A stretch of DNA of 64,000 nucleotides from Hymenobacter psychrophilus (GTDB taxonomy: Bacteria > Bacteroidota > Bacteroidia > Cytophagales > Hymenobacteraceae): assembly GCF_900107135.1 (NCBI RefSeq), contig NZ_FNOV01000004.1:186001-250000 (forward strand), read 5' to 3'. Made by a program: the position numbers and the translations under genes. A model generated the notes under the pieces. The model was not told where the DNA came from, searched no databases, and saw only the letters and a list, made by a program, of their open reading frames with translations. Positions 27,968 through 35,851 of the stretch are shown here, one piece after another (the stretch's first letter is position 1; every line of letters starts with the position of its first letter).

Positions 27968-29194
27968 TTAAGGCAGTAGTAGCGACGAGTCGCCGTAGCT
28001 GAGGAAGCGGTAGTCGTGGGCCAGTGCGTGCTCGTACACGCGCCGCCAGTCGGGGCCCAGCAGGGCGGCCACCAACAGCAGCAGCGTGCTTTCGGGCTGG
28101 TGAAAGTTGGTGATGAGCCCGCGCACCAGCCGGAAACGGTAGCCGGGCGCAATGAGGAGTTGGGTGGTAGCGTGCAGTGTATCGGAGCCCGTAAGTGCTA
28201 ACTGAGCCAGCAGTGCTTCTAAAGACTGCTGAATAGATACTTCGACGCCGGGTTCGTAGGGCTGCCACTGGCTCACGTGCCAGGCGGGCAGCTTGGCCGG
28301 CTGTTGCACCATTCTGGCCCCCAGCCAGTACAGGCTTTCGAGCGTGCGTAGGCTGGTAGTGCCCACCGGAATTATCGGGCGGTCCGCCGCCAAGTGCTCG
28401 TACAGCCGCCGCAACGTGTCGGCCGTTACGCTGAACGGCTCGCCGTGCATGGGGTGGTCGGCCATCTGCCCGGCCTTCACCGGCTGAAACGTGCCTGCAC
28501 CCACGTGCAGCGTGACGCGGGCGGCGGCGGTGCGGCGCTCGGCCAACTCAGCCAACACGGCTTCCGAGAAGTGCAAACCGGCCGTGGGGGCCGCCACGGC
28601 GCCCTCGTGGGCAGCGTACACGGTCTGGTAGCGTACGGCGTCTACGTCCGTATCGGGGCGGTTGAGGTAGGGCGGCAGGGGCAGGTGGCCGGCAGCGCGC
28701 AGCACTTCGGCAAACGGCAGCTCGGCCGGCTCCCAGTTGAAGGCAATCAGGGCATAGCCGTCGTGCTGCTCGGTTCGCTCAGCCCGCAGAGTGGCCGACT
28801 GGCCGTGGGCCTCGAATTCCAGCGTTACCGGGCCATCCTTCCAGCGGCGGCCGTTGCCCACCAGGCATTTCCAGACGCAGGCGCCGGTTTGCTGCATGGC
28901 CGGCTCAATGGCGCGGTGCGGTGCTACCGGCTCTAAGCAAAACAGCTCGACCATGCCGCCCGTGGGCCGCTGGGCAAACAGCCGTGCCCGCACCACCTTG
29001 GTATCATTAAAAACCAGCAGGCTATCGGGGGGTAGCAGAGCGGGCAGGTCGCGGAACGTCCGGTCGGCCAGCAGCCCCTGTTGGTACACTAAGAGCTTCG
29101 ATTGGTCGCGGTTGGCCAGCGGCTCGGGCGCAATGCGCTCGGGCGGCAGCTGGTAAGTGAAATCATGAATAGAGAGCCGGCGCGGGTCAGACAT
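27968..29194 (-). CDS. queA: S-adenosylmethionine:tRNA ribosyltransferase-isomerase
   Basis: QueA transfers the ribosyl part of SAM to preQ1 in tRNA, making epoxyqueuosine at the wobble position. The 408-residue protein has the family segments YQLPPERIAPEPLANRDQSKLLV, LLVFNDTKVVRARLF, AAPTAGLHFSE and the C-terminal LITNFHQPESTLLLLVAALLG. It is longer than the E. coli enzyme, as usual in Bacteroidota. The ATG at 29194 fits the family start. It is a single gene on this strand. Confidence 0.95.
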   Translation of the reverse strand: MSDPRRLSIHDFTYQLPPERIAPEPLANRDQSKLLVYQQGLLADRTFRDLPALLPPDSLLVFNDTKVVRARLFAQRPTGGMVELFCLEPVAPHRAIEPAMQQTGACVWKCLVGNGRRWKDGPVTLEFEAHGQSATLRAERTEQHDGYALIAFNWEPAELPFAEVLRAAGHLPLPPYLNRPDTDVDAVRYQTVYAAHEGAVAAPTAGLHFSEAVLAELAERRTAAARVTLHVGAGTFQPVKAGQMADHPMHGEPFSVTADTLRRLYEHLAADRPIIPVGTTSLRTLESLYWLGARMVQQPAKLPAWHVSQWQPYEPGVEVSIQQSLEALLAQLALTGSDTLHATTQLLIAPGYRFRLVRGLITNFHQPESTLLLLVAALLGPDWRRVYEHALAHDYRFLSYGDSSLLLP

Positions 29195-29339: not shown

Positions 29340-30107
29340 CTATTTCTGAAAAAACAGCAGGTGCTGTTGGGGCAGGGTTTCCACCGAATCGGTAAGGCGC
29401 AGGCCCACGGCGGCCATTTCGCGGCGGGCCTGCGCCACGCTCATCTTATGAATACGTTTGATAGGCACGTCGGGGTCTTCGGCCCGATACTCGACCAGCG
29501 CCAGCCGGCCGGTGGGCGACAGGGCCTGCCGAATGGCGCGAGTCATTTCGCGCGGGTAGTCGAATTCGTGGTACGCATCTACCAAAAGCACCAGGTCTAC
29601 CTGTCCGGCGGGCAGATTGGGGTTTTGGGTGGTGCCGCGCACCGGCACCACGTTGCGGGCGCCCAGCTTGGCTTTGGTTTCGCGCAGGCTGGCCAGCATC
29701 TCGGGCTGAATATCGACGGCCAGCACCCGCCCCTGGGGCACGAGCGCACTCATCTTAAAGGTGAAATACCCCGTGCCGGCCCCAATGTCGGCTACCACAT
29801 CGGTGGGTTTGAGCTTGAGCGCCCGTAGCAGCTGGTCGGTATCCTCCTCGCGGGCCCGGTCGGAGCGGTCGAGCCAGGCGGCTCCTTCGTGGCCCATTAC
29901 GTGGGCAATCTGGCGGCCCATATAATACTTGCCGATGCCGTTCAGGTCCTGGGGGGTGCGGCGTTCGTAACCGCTGGTGTCGGGGGCCGCGGCACGGCGC
30001 TGCTCGGTAAGCTGAACGGCAGTACCCTCACTCAGCGACTGAGTGCAGGCACCGATACCCAGTGCCAGGGCGCCCAAAGGCAGAAAAAGTCTTATTTGAT
30101 GGACCAT
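29340..30107 (-). CDS. Predicted lipoprotein with class I SAM-dependent methyltransferase domain
   Basis: The 255-residue protein starts with a hydrophobic signal region and a lipobox-like IGAC (Cys21), followed by a methyltransferase fold: motif I VADIGAGTGYFTFKM near 105-119, LAVDIQPEML (motif II acid), LVDAYHEFDYP (motif IV) and LALVEYRAED. It therefore appears to be an exported or membrane-anchored methyltransferase, which is odd because SAM is cytoplasmic. Similar secreted-looking methyltransferases are common in bacterial genomes without known function. Substrate unknown. Confidence 0.8.
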   Translation of the reverse strand: MVHQIRLFLPLGALALGIGACTQSLSEGTAVQLTEQRRAAAPDTSGYERRTPQDLNGIGKYYMGRQIAHVMGHEGAAWLDRSDRAREEDTDQLLRALKLKPTDVVADIGAGTGYFTFKMSALVPQGRVLAVDIQPEMLASLRETKAKLGARNVVPVRGTTQNPNLPAGQVDLVLLVDAYHEFDYPREMTRAIRQALSPTGRLALVEYRAEDPDVPIKRIHKMSVAQARREMAAVGLRLTDSVETLPQQHLLFFQK

Positions 30108-30330: not shown

Positions 30331-30912
30331 ATGAAACACTTGTCCAATCTGTTGCGCAAACTCACGGCCGTAGCGGCCATTGGTATTGCCCTAACGAGCT
30401 GCAACCGCGCCGAGTATGCCATGCTGCCCAAAACTGGCTCGGCTTACCACGGCACCCAGCGCGCGACCATCATCAAGCCCGCGCCAGCTCCTGAAGTAGC
30501 CGTAGCCCCGCAAGCTGCTGCCGAGGTAGTAGTAGCCCCCGAAGCTGTGGCTCCCGTAGCTACGCCCGCCCCGGCTGTTGCCAAAGCCGCTCCGGCTGCC
30601 AAAGCGGCTCCGGCCAATGTTGCCAACGCTGCCAAAGCCGTTAAGTTGAACTTCATGCAGAAGGCGCTGGTGCAGAAAATCACCAAGAATGCCGACAAGC
30701 TGGCTGCCAAAGCCGGCATGGTGAAAAAATCGTCGGAAACGGCCGCTACCAACCGCATCGACGGTAAGCTGCGGCAGGGCCTCATTCTGGTTCTTGTTGG
30801 TCTGCTGGTGGGCCTGCTGTCCGGAATCAGCAATATCTTCGCTGTTCTGGGCGGTATCATTGTCATTATTGGCGTCGTGCTCATCATCCTGTACCTGCTC
30901 GACGAGGTATAA
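30331..30912 (+). CDS. Small lipoprotein with Ala/Pro-rich linker and C-terminal membrane hairpin
   Basis: The 193-residue protein has a lipoprotein signal (lipobox ALTSC, Cys24), a Pro/Ala/Val-rich linker at about 50-100 (repeats of PAPAVAKAAPAAKAAP type), a basic stretch, and a very hydrophobic C-terminal part (about 150-190) with LVGLLVGLLSGISNIF and GGIIVIIGVVLIILYLL. The same hydrophobic module recurs in the genes at 31219 and 32263 and in the fragment at 31993. Function unknown; the design suggests an outer-leaflet anchor joined to an inner membrane hairpin. Confidence 0.75.
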   Translation: MKHLSNLLRKLTAVAAIGIALTSCNRAEYAMLPKTGSAYHGTQRATIIKPAPAPEVAVAPQAAAEVVVAPEAVAPVATPAPAVAKAAPAAKAAPANVANAAKAVKLNFMQKALVQKITKNADKLAAKAGMVKKSSETAATNRIDGKLRQGLILVLVGLLVGLLSGISNIFAVLGGIIVIIGVVLIILYLLDEV

Positions 30913-30929
30913 GCAGACTTGCTTCCCAA

Positions 30930-30975
30930 ACGAAAAACGCCCCGGTTGCCAATTGGTGAACGGGGCGTTTTTCGT
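30930..30975 (+). terminator. Intrinsic terminator after the 30331 gene
   Basis: Perfect 15-bp arms, 30930-30944 (ACGAAAAACGCCCCG) and 30961-30975, enclose a 16-nt loop; the right arm contains five T. It lies 18 nt after the stop codon. Confidence 0.85.
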
Positions 30976-31218
30976 AAAGTCTGATCTGAGGGCCAGTCAG
31001 CGGGCTGCATACGGTAGTATGAGGCAATTTATAGCCTCTTGTAAAGTCAGATATAGCTGAAGGACGGAATGGCTGGTACTAGGCGGTGCAGTACTTTTCA
31101 TCATCCGTTACACGCGGCCCTGCTTTGGCCACCGCAGGCCCCAATGGGGTTGCGCCTACTGGGAGCTCCATTAGTGCTTGCGGTCCATTTCTGCTATGCG
31201 TACCTGTTCCTGACTACC

Positions 31219-31764
31219 ATGATGCGAAATGCCATCGTAACTTCCTTACTGGCCTGTTCCGTGCTGGCCGGCTGCCAGAGCGCCCGCTTCGTGCCAACCC
31301 TTCCGCGGGTTAGTGAGTATGGTGCGGCCCGCACGCAACCCGCCGATGCGCCGCAACTGCCGGCTAAGCCCGCCGACGAGCTCGTGCTATCGGCTGCCCT
31401 GCCCGGCCCCGAATCTGGGAACGGCGCCACCCAGGAAACCCGGCTGTTATCGTTGGGAGGCAACAACGCGCGGTACGTTCAGGTTGCACCGCTATTCGCC
31501 GCCCCCGATACTGCCCTGAACAAGCTATTGCCGCTACCACCTGTCCGCCCAGCCGACTCCTTTACAACGGCCGTGAATGTGGTGGGGGGGATAGTCGTGG
31601 CAGGAGGGATTGGCTCCGGAGTTGCCGCCTTCAATTCCGACAAAGACCTGAGCGCAGGCCTGTCCCGGCTGCTGATCGGTGTTGTCCTGCTGGTGGTAGG
31701 CGCCACGATGTTATTTTTTCGGGGTAAAAACAGCCGGCGGCGGCAGGCGCAGAAGAACCGGTAG
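31219..31764 (+). CDS. Small lipoprotein, paralogue of the 32263 gene, shortened C-terminus
   Basis: From the ATG at 31219 the 181-residue protein has a lipoprotein signal with lipobox VLAGC, then QSARF, a Pro-rich region, and a hydrophobic part (about 115-170) ending GKNSRRRQAQKNR. It aligns with the gene at 32263: GCQS near the start, the pair DSFTTAVNVVGG and DPLTTVVNVSGA, and FRGKNSRRRQ against FQGKNGRQRK. The paralogue continues with a second hydrophobic module, which is missing here; a frameshifted piece of such a module lies downstream at 31993. The frame is open from 31069, but that upstream part has no signal peptide. Confidence 0.7.
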   Translation: MMRNAIVTSLLACSVLAGCQSARFVPTLPRVSEYGAARTQPADAPQLPAKPADELVLSAALPGPESGNGATQETRLLSLGGNNARYVQVAPLFAAPDTALNKLLPLPPVRPADSFTTAVNVVGGIVVAGGIGSGVAAFNSDKDLSAGLSRLLIGVVLLVVGATMLFFRGKNSRRRQAQKNR

Positions 31765-31868
31765 GATGCACTCCGGATAACTTTGTTCCTGAACAAGTCT
31801 GAGCGCAGGAGCGAAACAGCCAGCGGCCGATTCCGGGCGGCAGCCCGAACCAGCCCTAATACCTGCTG

Positions 31869-31994
31869 CTACATCGGGCCCACGTCGGCGGCCACACGCA
31901 CCTGCTTGAACTCCTTCTGGTCGCGCACCACTTCCGTGAAGGCCGTCATATCGGCTTTGGTGGCTTTGAGCACGGTATGCTCGCGGCTGAGCTT
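31869..31994 (-). pseudogene. Displaced copy of the priA 3' end (41 codons plus stop)
   Basis: Read on the minus strand this segment encodes KLSREHTVLKATKAD through VRDQKEFKQV to AADVGPM and a TAG, colinear with the last 41 codons of the real priA at 33045-33170. By hand count 108 of 126 bases (about 86%) and 32 of 41 residues agree, with no indel. There is no upstream priA sequence: at 31994 it joins a lipoprotein-type sequence in the opposite orientation. The unbroken frame suggests it diverged as a working priA end, perhaps from a related strain, before being stranded here. Confidence 0.85.
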
Positions 31995-32110
31995 GGTGGG
32001 CCTGCTGGTTTCGCTGCTCTCCGGCACCTCCGGTATCTTCGGCCTCATTGGTGGTGGTTTTCGCCGTTATCGGCCCGATCCTCCTCCTTTGGCTGCCGCG
32101 ACTTTTTGCT
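31993..32110 (+). pseudogene. Frameshifted fragment of a lipoprotein C-terminal membrane module
   Basis: Starting at the junction with the priA fragment, the plus strand encodes VGLLVSLLSGTSGIFGLIGG, closely like LVGLLVGLLSGISNIFAVLGG of the 30331 protein. Near 32050-32060 the frame must shift by one base (in the GGTGGTGGT run) to continue as VFAVIGPILLLW. No start codon or signal peptide belongs to it. A nominal 150-residue frame at 31783-32235 runs through this piece but joins unrelated parts and is probably not a gene. Confidence 0.7.
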
Positions 32111-32262
32111 TAGCCCTCCCTGGCTTCAGCGCGGGCGGGCTGCTGGCAGAAACAGGACGCCAGAAAGCGGGGGATGCATGCGAATGGCGCCGAAGCATTA
32201 AAAAAGCGCGTTATTGGGCGTATTCCCGCTCCTAATCTTATCCCATTCTGTAGCCCCAACTC

Positions 32263-33015
32263 ATGAGCAACCTATCCATAAGTCGTTATTGGCTGATGCT
32301 GGTGTTACTGACCGGCTGCCAGAGCACGCGGCCGGCTTCTTTTTCCTTTGCTCAATCACATACTGCTCCATCACATGCTGAGTACTACCGGCGCCAACCG
32401 GCACCAGCCGGGGTAATTGCGGAAGTGGAACTGGCCCAACTCACCGCGAGCCTGCCCGATACGGCCGCCGACACGATGCCGGCCCGCCGATCCGGGAACC
32501 TGGCTGCCTACTCGTCCCGCGCACTGCCCAAGGCCGCCGTTATTCTGCCTGATACAGTCACTGAGCGGCTTTCGCAGCCGCTGCCCGCTGGTAAGCCCGA
32601 TCCGCTGACTACGGTTGTGAATGTAAGCGGGGCGGTTTCGCTACTCGCGGGGGTGGGCCTGATTGCGGCCGGGGCCTACAACGACAAGGGTGGTCTCAGC
32701 GGGCTGGGCTATGTATTATTTGCCCTACCGCTCCTGGTTATTGGGGTTCCGCTGTTGCTTTTCCAAGGTAAAAACGGCCGCCAGCGCAAGCGCCATGAGG
32801 CCCGGGTTGCGGCCCGGCAGCCTACCGCTGTTCCCGCCACCAACAGCCCCGCTGCCAACCGGCCCCTTAAACGGCTGGGGGTAAGCATGATGCTGGCCAC
32901 CGGTCTGTTACTGTTGCTGGGGTTGCTCGGTGGACCAGGTGGGGTAGCGCTGGCCACGTTTGTGGGCTTGCCCTTGGCGGTAGTAGGACTCGTGTTCTTT
33001 ATTGTCGGCTCGTAA
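32263..33015 (+). CDS. Small lipoprotein with two hydrophobic modules
   Basis: The 250-residue protein has a lipoprotein signal (lipobox LLTGC near residue 18, then QSTR), a variable polar region, a first hydrophobic module (about 112-160) ending FQGKNGRQRKRHEARVA, a Pro/Ala linker and a second hydrophobic module (about 205-250: MLATGLLLLLGLLGGPGG, LPLAVVGLVFFIVGS). It is the complete form of the 31219 paralogue. Convergent with priA, whose stop is only 30 nt away with no clear terminator between. Function unknown. Confidence 0.75.
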   Translation: MSNLSISRYWLMLVLLTGCQSTRPASFSFAQSHTAPSHAEYYRRQPAPAGVIAEVELAQLTASLPDTAADTMPARRSGNLAAYSSRALPKAAVILPDTVTERLSQPLPAGKPDPLTTVVNVSGAVSLLAGVGLIAAGAYNDKGGLSGLGYVLFALPLLVIGVPLLLFQGKNGRQRKRHEARVAARQPTAVPATNSPAANRPLKRLGVSMMLATGLLLLLGLLGGPGGVALATFVGLPLAVVGLVFFIVGS

Positions 33016-33044
33016 GGCCGTCCGGGGCGAAGCGGCACTTTGCC

Positions 33045-35573
33045 CTACATCGGGTCCACATCGGCAGCCAGGCGCACCTGCTTGAATTCCTTCTGGTCGC
33101 GCACTATGTCCATGGCGGCCATCACGTCGGCTTTGGCGGCCTTGAGCACGGTATGCTCGCGGCTGAGTTTGATGGTGATTTCCTGGAGGTAGAAGTTGCG
33201 GATGCGGAAGATGTAAGGGGCTTCCGGCCCCAGCACGGCCTCGCGGCCCAGCCGGTCCACGAGCTCCTGGGTAAGTAGCAGCGCCGCCCGCTCGCCCACC
33301 GAAACGTCGACGTGCTTTACGGTAAGGCGGATGATACGCATAAACGGGGGGTAGCCGTGCTCACGGCGCTGGGTGATTTCGTACTCGTAGAACTCCAGGT
33401 AGTCGTTGCGCATCACCTTGTCGAAGATGACCTGCTCGGGGTCGGCGGTCTGGATGATCACGCGGCCCTTTTTGCCCTTGCGGCCCGCCCGCCCGCTCAC
33501 CTGCACAAACATCTGGAAGGCCCGCTCGTGGGCCCGAAAATCGGGGTAATGAATGATGGAGTCGGCGTTGATGATGCCTACCAGACTCACGTTAGCAAAG
33601 TCGAGGCCCTTGGTCACCATCTGAGTGCCCACCAGCACGTTGGTCTTCTGCTGCTCGAAATCGGAAATAATCTGCTGGTAGGAGTTCTTGGCGCGGGTGG
33701 TGTCGAGGTCCATGCGCTGCACGTTGGCCTGGGGCAGCATCACCTTCAGGTCGTCCTCGATTTTCTCGGTGCCGAAGCCCACAGTTTTCACGTTGCGTGA
33801 GCCGCAGGCCGGGCATTGGGCCGGCATCCGGTCGTGGTGGCCGCAGTAGTGGCAGCGTAACTCGTGGGCCTGCTTGTGGTAGCTCAGGCTCACGGCGCAG
33901 TTAGTGCACTTCGGAATCCAGCCGCAGTCGAGGCAGTTGATGAACGGGGCGTAGCCGCGGCGGTTCTGGAACAAAATCACCTGCTCCTGCTGGGCCAGTT
34001 TGCTTTCCATTTCGGCCATCAGCTCGGGCGTGAAATGGTTGAGCATGGTCTTCTGCTCCCGGCTCTTGCGCGTGTCCACGAGCACGATTTCGGGCAGGCC
34101 AGCCTCGCCGAAGCGCTTGGTGAGGCTCACCAGCCCGTAGCGGCCGGCCCGGGCCTGGTAGTAGGTTTCTACCGCTGGCGTGGCCGAGCCGAGCAGGGTT
34201 TTGGAGCCCTGGAAGTGGGCCATCATCAGGGCCACTTCGCGGGCGTTGTAGCGTGGGGCCGGGTCGTACTGCTTGTAGCTCGATTCGTGCTCCTCATCCA
34301 CAATCGTGAGCGAGAGGTTATCGAAGGGCAGAAACACGGCCGAGCGCACGCCCACCACCACCTGAAACCGGCCCGAGAGCACCCCGTTCCACACCTCCAC
34401 CCGCTCATTGTCGGAGAACTTGGAGTGGTACACGCCCAGCCGCGAGCCGAACACGCGCATGAGCCGGGTAACAATCTGGGCCGTGAGGGCAATTTCGGGC
34501 AGCAGGTACAGCACCTGCCCGCCGCCGTCCAAGGCCTGCTTTATCAGGTCGATGTAGATTTCCGTCTTGCCCGCGCCCGTTACGCCGTGCAGCAGCACAA
34601 TTTCTTTGGTCTGAAACTCGCGCATTACCGCGTCGCGAGCCTCCACCTGGGTATCACTCAGCGTGAAGTGCATATTGGCCTGGGCATCGTCCTCATCCAG
34701 TGGGAAGCGCGATACAATCTGGTCGAATTGCTCCAGAATGCCGTTTTTGATGAGCGTATTCACCGCCGAAGCCGACAGGTGCGGGGCCGAGGTGAGGGCG
34801 GCCTTATCCATGCCGCGGTGGTTGGCGTGCTCGTTCTGGTACACTGGCACGCGCTGCAAATAGCGCATCACCACATCAAGCTGCTTGGCTTTGCCGGCCA
34901 GCTGCCCGAACAACTCCTCCAGGGCCGCCTCAGCCACGTAGCGGTGCGCCAGCCGCACTTTCTTCACCACCTTGGGCGCAAACTTATCCTTGAGATGCTC
35001 GAACAAAAACACCACGTCCTTCTGCATCAACGACTTGATGTACTTGTGGAAAGACGCAATGCCCAGCAGCTCGCCCACCTCGGTAAACGTCAGCGACTTG
35101 CCAACTTCCTCGCCGGTGCTCAGCGCGTCCACCACCTTCTGCTCCTGGTCGCCGAGCGGGTAGGGGTGGGTTTCGGGCTCGTAAGCCGGATGCAGCTGCA
35201 CCCAGCTCTCGGAGCTGAGCTTGAGGGCGGAAGGCAGGGCCGCGTTTATCACCTCGCCCAGGGTGCAGAGGTAGTACTCGGCAATCCAGGCAAACAGCTT
35301 CAGCTGGGGCTGCGTGACGACGGGCGCATCATCAATAAACTCCAGGATGTACTTGGCCTGGTACTCCTTGGGCGGCGACTGGTGCACGGCGGCCACAATG
35401 CAGCTCAGCGTCCGCTTGGCCCCAAACTGCACTAGCACCCGGCCCCCAATCACCACCTGGTCGTTTAGCTCGAACGGGACGCGGTAAGTATAAAGGCGGG
35501 GCAGCGGCAGGGGCAGAATGACGTCGGCAAACAGCGTGACGCGGTCGGCCGCCGGTTCCGGCGCGGGCTGCAC
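33045..35573 (-). CDS. priA: Primosomal protein N' (replication restart helicase PriA)
   Basis: PriA recognises stalled forks and reloads the replicative helicase. The product of about 842 residues has the N-terminal 3'-end-binding domain (TLFADVILPLPLPRLYTYRVPF), a winged-helix part, and a superfamily 2 helicase core with Walker A HGVTGAGKTEIY, Walker B VDEEHESSYK, the GSATPAVETY motif, and the zinc-binding cysteines (CLDCGWIPKCTNC, CHYCGHHDRMPAQCPAC). The frame is open to 35705, but the extra residues are poorly conserved in character; the GTG at 35573 starts MQPAPEPAADRVTLFADV and fits the fold. Its 3' end is the parent-like counterpart of the fragment at 31869. Confidence 0.95.
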   Translation of the reverse strand: MQPAPEPAADRVTLFADVILPLPLPRLYTYRVPFELNDQVVIGGRVLVQFGAKRTLSCIVAAVHQSPPKEYQAKYILEFIDDAPVVTQPQLKLFAWIAEYYLCTLGEVINAALPSALKLSSESWVQLHPAYEPETHPYPLGDQEQKVVDALSTGEEVGKSLTFTEVGELLGIASFHKYIKSLMQKDVVFLFEHLKDKFAPKVVKKVRLAHRYVAEAALEELFGQLAGKAKQLDVVMRYLQRVPVYQNEHANHRGMDKAALTSAPHLSASAVNTLIKNGILEQFDQIVSRFPLDEDDAQANMHFTLSDTQVEARDAVMREFQTKEIVLLHGVTGAGKTEIYIDLIKQALDGGGQVLYLLPEIALTAQIVTRLMRVFGSRLGVYHSKFSDNERVEVWNGVLSGRFQVVVGVRSAVFLPFDNLSLTIVDEEHESSYKQYDPAPRYNAREVALMMAHFQGSKTLLGSATPAVETYYQARAGRYGLVSLTKRFGEAGLPEIVLVDTRKSREQKTMLNHFTPELMAEMESKLAQQEQVILFQNRRGYAPFINCLDCGWIPKCTNCAVSLSYHKQAHELRCHYCGHHDRMPAQCPACGSRNVKTVGFGTEKIEDDLKVMLPQANVQRMDLDTTRAKNSYQQIISDFEQQKTNVLVGTQMVTKGLDFANVSLVGIINADSIIHYPDFRAHERAFQMFVQVSGRAGRKGKKGRVIIQTADPEQVIFDKVMRNDYLEFYEYEITQRREHGYPPFMRIIRLTVKHVDVSVGERAALLLTQELVDRLGREAVLGPEAPYIFRIRNFYLQEITIKLSREHTVLKAAKADVMAAMDIVRDQKEFKQVRLAADVDPM

Positions 35574-35851
35574 AAAATCAAACGAAAGACTCAATAGAAG
35601 GCAAAAACAGAAAGAGAAGCATCGGCCGGCCGGCCACCGGCCGCCCCGGCGGAACAGTAAGTAAAGATACAGTACCCGCCGCCCCCGCAAAAACTGCCGC
35701 CGCAAATTTCGCCCGCCGCTACAGCGGAGAAGGGCAGCTTGCTTTGTTGGCTAGAGCGGTTTTGAAGGGGCGTTTCGGCGAGGAAAATGTGCCTGGGAGA
35801 GGGCCGCACTGATGAGCAAGCCAGACTGCAGAAGCATCGGAATCTGGTGCT

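Follow-up and report, generated by a model that had tools for sequence, protein, structure and literature searches.

The slot between a lipoprotein gene that we call lipoA and the priA gene holds a hypervariable lipoprotein gene in Hymenobacter, and in Hymenobacter psychrophilus it holds two. We describe this locus in a stretch of 64,000 nucleotides (nt) from that genome (contig NZ_FNOV01000004.1, positions 186,001 to 250,000; hereafter the window, whose own numbering is used), where the gene order is lipoA, lipoB, priA tail, lipoA end, lipoC, priA. We think it probable that recombination added a foreign allele, lipoC, in tandem beside the resident allele, lipoB, leaving a scar composed of priA and lipoA ends. 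The comparisons drew on 120 Hymenobacter genomes including this one, with relatives' genomes given G numbers and fetched loci L numbers. priA is found in all 120, once in 118 and split between two contigs in G099 and G108. Its 3' side (7-8 kb) was fetched for 112 of the 119 relatives, those omitted (G090, G094, G095, G096, G097, G099 and G108) having a partial priA or a contig that ends soon after it.

Stranded ends of priA and lipoA

The intact priA gene lies on the minus strand at 33045-35705 and encodes the Pfam families PriA_3primeBD, PriA_C and Zn_ribbon_PriA; its start codon is uncertain, and searches used 850 residues from 35597. This orientation places the stop codon at 33045-33047. 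A decaying second copy of its 3' end, 41 codons plus stop, is stranded on the same strand at 31869-31994. A first-pass annotation made from the window alone had reported such a copy in the same orientation, about 86% identical, with an open frame and nine differing residues but no indel, and a codon-register comparison with 33045-33170 bears this out: 108 of 126 nt are identical without any indel, 33 of 42 codons agree in meaning (including the kept stop), and 32 of 41 residues are the same while 9 differ. The repeat as a whole extends over 131 nt at 85% identity (31869-31999 and 33045-33175). When the whole genome was searched, the copy matched priA at E=4e-37, with the next match at E=0.012, and nhmmer with the priA tails of close relatives finds the copy at E=8e-33.

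To count changes in the fragment, we took the majority ancestor of clade I, the group (G035, G079, G114, G001, G003 and G087) within which a species tree from alaS, gyrA and uvrB (alaS without a G114 row, for which there was no match) places H. psychrophilus with support 100, leaving G004, G065 and G054 outside. Over 123 nt the fragment carries 13 changes, of which 9 are nonsynonymous and 4 synonymous, compared with 15 nonsynonymous and 47 synonymous in ten working priA tails (its own and those of nine relatives) pooled, where changes common to several tails count more than once (Fisher p=0.003); compared with its own tail alone (1 nonsynonymous, 6 synonymous), p=0.057. Under neutrality 73-78% of changes would be nonsynonymous, and the fragment's 69% is not significantly lower (p=0.31-0.48). 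Its altered residues include positions invariant in 29 tabulated relatives, such as D39 and A12. Since the make-up of the changes is neutral and invariant residues were hit, the fragment decayed after being cut off. The earlier argument that nine changes without an indel point to divergence inside a working priA is thus overturned, the 9:4 and 15:47 counts ruling such divergence out. At about 0.1 change per site, the scar is old, of the order of the species split in clade I. The same neutral make-up, together with the lack of a second copy in the 112 fetched loci, makes it hardly credible that the fragment is a conserved functional element such as an antisense RNA or a terminator.

The first-pass annotation also had the priA copy join a lipoprotein membrane module after 31994. 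The module is there, but its source is a third gene, lipoA (30331-30912, plus strand), a resident lipoprotein with C-terminal membrane helices that is conserved beside the slot, and not the flanking paralogues. This fragment of the lipoA 3' end, lipoA'' (31996-32100, plus strand), matches 30796-30841 over 31996-32041 (72% of 46 nt) and changes frame at about 32055, as judged by eye. lipoA itself is 73-87% identical to its clade I counterparts and 59-65% identical to those of G004, G065 and G054. The fragment is not of its own clade's type: placement within clade I is rejected (p=0.012), and it falls with G004, G054 and G065 and with G059, G068 and G022 (support 92/99). At the join (31989-31999) the letters are CTTGGTGG, compared with CTTGATGG in the priA of four of the five relatives inspected and CTTGTTGG in its own lipoA. 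Seven of eight nt at this point are common to its own lipoA and the relatives' priA, a raw count in which its own lipoA stands in for that of the donor. These letters hint that the join may have been made at a microhomology.

Origins of the two alleles and a second case

lipoB (31219-31764) and lipoC (32263-33015), both on the plus strand, are the complete lipoprotein paralogues that the first-pass annotation had placed on either side of the scar, yet they are only 34-37% identical. In a 21-row tree of slot genes, lipoB groups with G079, G003 and G087 (90/85) and lipoC with G054 (88/92); an earlier 43-row tree again placed lipoC with G054 (86/81). Forcing lipoB and lipoC to be sisters over the whole gene costs 46 log units (approximately unbiased (AU) test, p=0.004), whereas lipoB with clade I is accepted (p=0.45). 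The DNA around the genes was compared as well. The 100 nt upstream of lipoC (32163-32262, plus strand) resemble the DNA upstream of the G004 slot gene (z=6.5, a score reached by 0 of 300 plain shuffles) and, less closely, that of G054 (z=3.0, 7 of 300), while five clade I genomes give at most z=1.1. The DNA between lipoA and lipoB matches G035 (72% of 181 nt) and G079 (69% of 181 nt). From the gene trees, the upstream DNA and the placement of lipoA'', lipoB reads as resident and the block from the lipoA end to lipoC as foreign-type.

Judged from its sequence, the gene order is the product expected of a tandem duplication of a lipoA end, a slot gene and a priA tail. A simple duplication of this kind within the genome, after which the copies diverged where they lay or one of them was later replaced, would account for both the order and the spacings (1176, 1200 and 1044 nt), and the seven of eight nt shared at the join would suit it too. 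What it does not account for is that identity is 86% in the scar but only 34-37% between the slot genes, that the two copies are not mutually closest on the whole gene, that the DNA upstream of lipoC matches G004, and that lipoA'' lies outside its own clade. We thus regard simple duplication as quite improbable; in the form with divergence in place, it is disfavoured by the whole-gene slot tree. The first-pass annotation had read the order as the trace of either a tandem duplication or recombination with a relative's locus, and of these the trees favour recombination, through the non-sister relationship of the two genes and the placement of lipoA'' and, marginally, of lipoC.

G069, the sole relative with two slot open reading frames (ORFs) among the 106 classified, likewise has a tandem of two distinct alleles with a new join between them. 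Its layout is the same as in the window, with different breakpoints. A remnant of 27 nt, the very end of a priA-like sequence, starts 24 nt after the stop codon of the first lipoprotein gene (7.7 bits; E=0.11 with a close-relative model and 0.29 with a genus model, among all slots), and its score was not reached in any of 2000 resamples of the interval by a first-order Markov model. Next comes a piece from the middle of lipoA, which is 82% identical over 50 nt to the lipoA of G081 (E=1.5e-8) and 82% over 55 nt to its own. Sisterhood of the two G069 slot genes is rejected (p=0.001): the first groups with G081 (100/98) and the second with G062 and G053 (99/100), and placement of the second within the resident group is rejected (p=0.006). 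In both genomes the resident-type allele lies on the left and the foreign-type allele on the priA side. With tblastn, none of the 112 relatives yielded a second priA tail within its fetched 7-8 kb. When nhmmer was run on the slots, the window's copy came first and the 27 nt of G069 next, and beyond these the only matches were at E of 1.5 and worse, with L123, L061 and L134 foremost.

The slot-gene tree would look the same if the tandem were old, that is, if a duplication predating the split of clade I from G004, G065 and G054 had been followed by the loss of one copy elsewhere, by looping out through crossing over between the priA tails or the lipoA ends, while H. psychrophilus kept both. The age of the scar fits such a history, as 13 changes in 123 nt amount to about half the fourfold-site difference in priA between species (0.21-0.28), and direct repeats 1176 nt apart would ease clean losses. 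However, with the genome nested in clade I, at least two losses would be needed inside the clade and more outside it, and no recognisable scar was seen in the six clade I and three outside genomes inspected. In addition, the fragment and its own priA tail share CAT at codon 6, unlike the nine close relatives, though 11 of 20 further relatives have CAT as well. This shared codon also points, if weakly, to a resident origin of the fragment. We consider the old tandem somewhat unlikely, if still a serious contender. An assembly artefact or contamination might be suspected in a draft genome of 45 contigs, but the locus is internal to a contig of 358 kb, the two copies differ in sequence instead of matching exactly, and G069 repeats the arrangement, so that an artefact is very improbable.

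A possible route of allele addition

From these data, we infer the direction of transfer, the side of anchoring, the route of uptake and which priA tail was resident as follows. A relative's version of the locus, comprising a lipoA end and lipoC with its upstream DNA, would have been placed beside the resident lipoB by recombination. The incoming DNA may have paired by homology on the right side, in the 3' end of priA or close to it; on the left side, an illegitimate join of microhomology size would have connected a priA 3' end to the incoming lipoA 3' end, giving the product lipoA-lipoB-[priA tail / lipoA end]-lipoC-priA. The tandem would then have persisted while the stranded, functionless pieces decayed, the lipoA piece as far as a change of frame. 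Natural transformation is a possible route of uptake, as far as gene content can indicate, since genes for a ComEC-type competence domain and for DprA are present.

Several observations weigh against the addition of a foreign allele. On the side of lipoC, its placement inside clade I has p=0.081, which is above 0.05 and makes its exclusion suggestive only, and no close donor was found, its best match being 49% identical over the full length or 62% over residues 96-250. On the side of lipoB, the gene was unplaced in the 43-row tree, and for the 100 nt immediately before it no clade I genome gives a good match (the best is G087, z=2.3, 9 of 300 shuffles). Since this upstream DNA is without a strong partner, the case for lipoB as resident depends on the gene itself and on the DNA closer to lipoA. 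With the N-terminal half alone (first 110 columns), sisterhood of lipoB and lipoC is unrejected (p=0.10), and because the clades were defined with the first tree already known, the p-values flatter the result somewhat. Binned identity along priA gave no donor tract that stood out, and the intact priA 3' end resembles clade I. The tail fragment remained unplaced on a tree of priA tails, so that the grouping with another species' priA anticipated by the first-pass annotation was neither favoured nor rejected: at 126 nt, too short to resolve, the fragment is compatible with its own tail (p=0.30), its own clade (p=0.27) and the three outside genomes (p=0.35), although it is nominally closer to the priA of G003 (111/126) than to its own (108/126). 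ComEC-type and DprA genes each occur in 10 of 14 control genomes, so their presence does not demonstrate competence. As for G069, its lipoA piece is nearest the lipoA of its own group rather than those of G062 and G053, which would fit a partly internal duplication there, and its second slot gene sits on a long branch (1.53).

If a foreign allele was added in this way, the event resembles known ones in part. Homology-facilitated illegitimate recombination has a homologous anchor on one side and a microhomology join on the other, and is known chiefly from insertions of foreign DNA. The Hymenobacter locus may share the anchor and the microhomology join, with the difference that its insert is an allele of the neighbouring gene and that no donor tract was found in priA. 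Transformation merodiploids of Streptococcus pneumoniae, going by the portion of the account consulted, also arise when incoming DNA pairs at one place and joins at another to give a tandem with two versions, but the tandem described there spans 107.4 kb, is unstable and is based on long repeats (PMC3784515), whereas that of Hymenobacter is about 1.2 kb, old, joined at a microhomology-sized junction and known here from its sequence. The sections consulted on the spa locus with adjacent spsP/spsQ describe a recombination hotspot at a surface-protein gene (PMC7593597), and hotspots between core genes are known, according to the excerpt consulted (PMC5635113). As in such surface-protein hotspots, insofar as these excerpts portray them, fixed flanks here enclose a variable content of 0 to 2 related surface-protein genes; unlike them, the Hymenobacter event is marked by a scar of both flanking genes, and no mobile-element gene was noticed between the flanks in the window. 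Surface-protein-gene hotspots (PMC7593597) and transformation merodiploids (PMC3784515) are thus already known, on the strength of these partial texts. What is new, as far as a limited literature search goes, is the locus itself and a recurrent scar, composed of both flanking genes, that serves as a record of an added allele. The locus was absent from the titles and abstract openings of open-licence Hymenobacter papers on lipoprotein recombination, priA, or natural transformation and competence. Allelic exchange of the replacement type leaves little mark, which makes the scars informative: since two lineages kept both alleles and the join, the breakpoints and rough age of the exchange can be read.

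A broader and unlikely proposal is that the slot is a site of allele switching, at which foreign alleles enter in tandem, anchored at priA, and the tandem later collapses to the old or the new allele. Collapse would follow a crossover in which one priA tail pairs with the other, or one lipoA end with the other, and the scars in the window and in G069 would be tandems left uncollapsed because their repeats decayed. If true, this process would drive fast turnover of the envelope protein encoded in the slot.

The slot and its lipoprotein across the genus

The order queA-MT-lipoA-[slot]-priA is kept in 39 of the 40 closest loci, the remaining one (L068) being cut by a contig end. Counting ORFs of at least 100 residues, 64 of the 112 relatives have no gene in the slot (71-177 nt), 39 have one ORF, 1 has two, 2 have a long slot without an ORF, and 6 are unclassified; two of the 39 (G038 and G078) are very divergent and may be unrelated. 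Even within clade I, G001 is without a slot gene, whereas G003 and G087 have one. Such conserved flanks around a variable content (0, 1 or 2 genes) are those of a hotspot, and the lipoprotein content varies between relatives as the first-pass annotation had anticipated. Its suggestion of a site of repeated exchange is likewise upheld by this variation, by jumps in identity within the slot genes and by the separate example in G069. The two long slots without an ORF are L043 (G109) and L088 (G040), of 387 and 915 nt. That of G109 retains the end of a slot gene (E=1e-5), and that of G040 matches only the very divergent ORF of G038 (E=1e-10), itself possibly no slot gene.

The slot genes appear, from their alignments, to be mosaics, with segments exchanged between them. 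Over aligned residues, lipoB is 45-52% identical to the slot genes of five clade I genomes, which share 42-74% mutually, whereas PriA from the same genomes has 96-97% identity to that of H. psychrophilus. Nucleotide identity between G003 and G087 runs 68, 60, 65, 86, 90 and 96% in 40-codon bins along the gene, and that between G035 and G079 falls from 90 to 46%. Trees built from the two gene halves concur only partly. The C-terminal half of lipoC groups with G054 (97/98) and not with G004 (p=0.003); its N-terminal half groups with G004 (84/88), yet grouping with G054 is unrejected (p=0.21). Similarly, G035, G079 and G087 group in the N-terminal half (75/86), which is rejected for the C-terminal half (p=0.0005), while the C-terminal grouping of G003 and G087 is not firmly rejected for the N-terminal half (p=0.09). 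The unity of clade I in the C-terminal half stands (p=0.18).

The slot protein has a lipobox, a low-confidence stretch rich in Pro and Ala, and then two or four membrane-type helices. A structure model of lipoC (mean predicted local distance difference test (pLDDT) 73, predicted template modelling score (pTM) 0.49) has an N-terminal helix with the lipobox, mostly low-confidence, unstructured residues at about 23-95, and four long helices. lipoB ends short of the second, C-terminal membrane hairpin that is present in all five clade I slot genes, as judged from the alignment with the hairpin taken from the model, and shorter versions (184-201 residues) occur in other lineages. When 38 slot proteins were searched against Pfam (E up to 0.01), at most 2 matched any one family, with a best E of 1.2e-4, and a profile of the slot protein had no match among solved structures at E up to 1. 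No relative of lipoC was found on plasmids, nor among 75 pattern matches in viral contigs. These results point to a fast-changing Hymenobacter lipoprotein slot that Pfam covers poorly. As a guess from the modelled architecture, a lipid anchor and membrane helices joined by a long flexible linker could bridge two membranes; another guess is that it is a candidate for an envelope protein on which phages or competitors exert pressure. Relatives of this lipoprotein occur at 4872-5723 of L237 (H. cavernae) and 4998-5765 of L241 (H. crusticola), where the fetched 10 kb had no match to lipoA, MT, queA or the priA 3' end (E up to 1e-3). Since these genes stand apart from lipoA and priA, the family is not confined to this slot.

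Directly after lipoA, an inverted repeat at 30930-30975 is probably a terminator, and similar hairpins were seen by eye in all nine close relatives inspected. The interval 30913-31218 and its equivalents in G035, G079, G087, G114 and G003 contain, by eye, two occurrences of a GTAAAGTCTGATTT-type motif separated by some tens of nt, which is possibly regulatory. On the left flank, both on the minus strand, lie the gene at 27968-29194, which we take to be queA, and a class I S-adenosylmethionine (SAM) methyltransferase-like gene, MT (29340-30107; Pfam Methyltransf_12, E=1.4e-16). By eye, the N-terminus of the MT protein is a lipoprotein-type signal (LGIGACTQS), which is odd, as the enzyme needs cytoplasmic SAM. 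In L064 and L065 (G118 and G092), queA matches as two overlapping pieces, suggesting a frameshift or a split gene.

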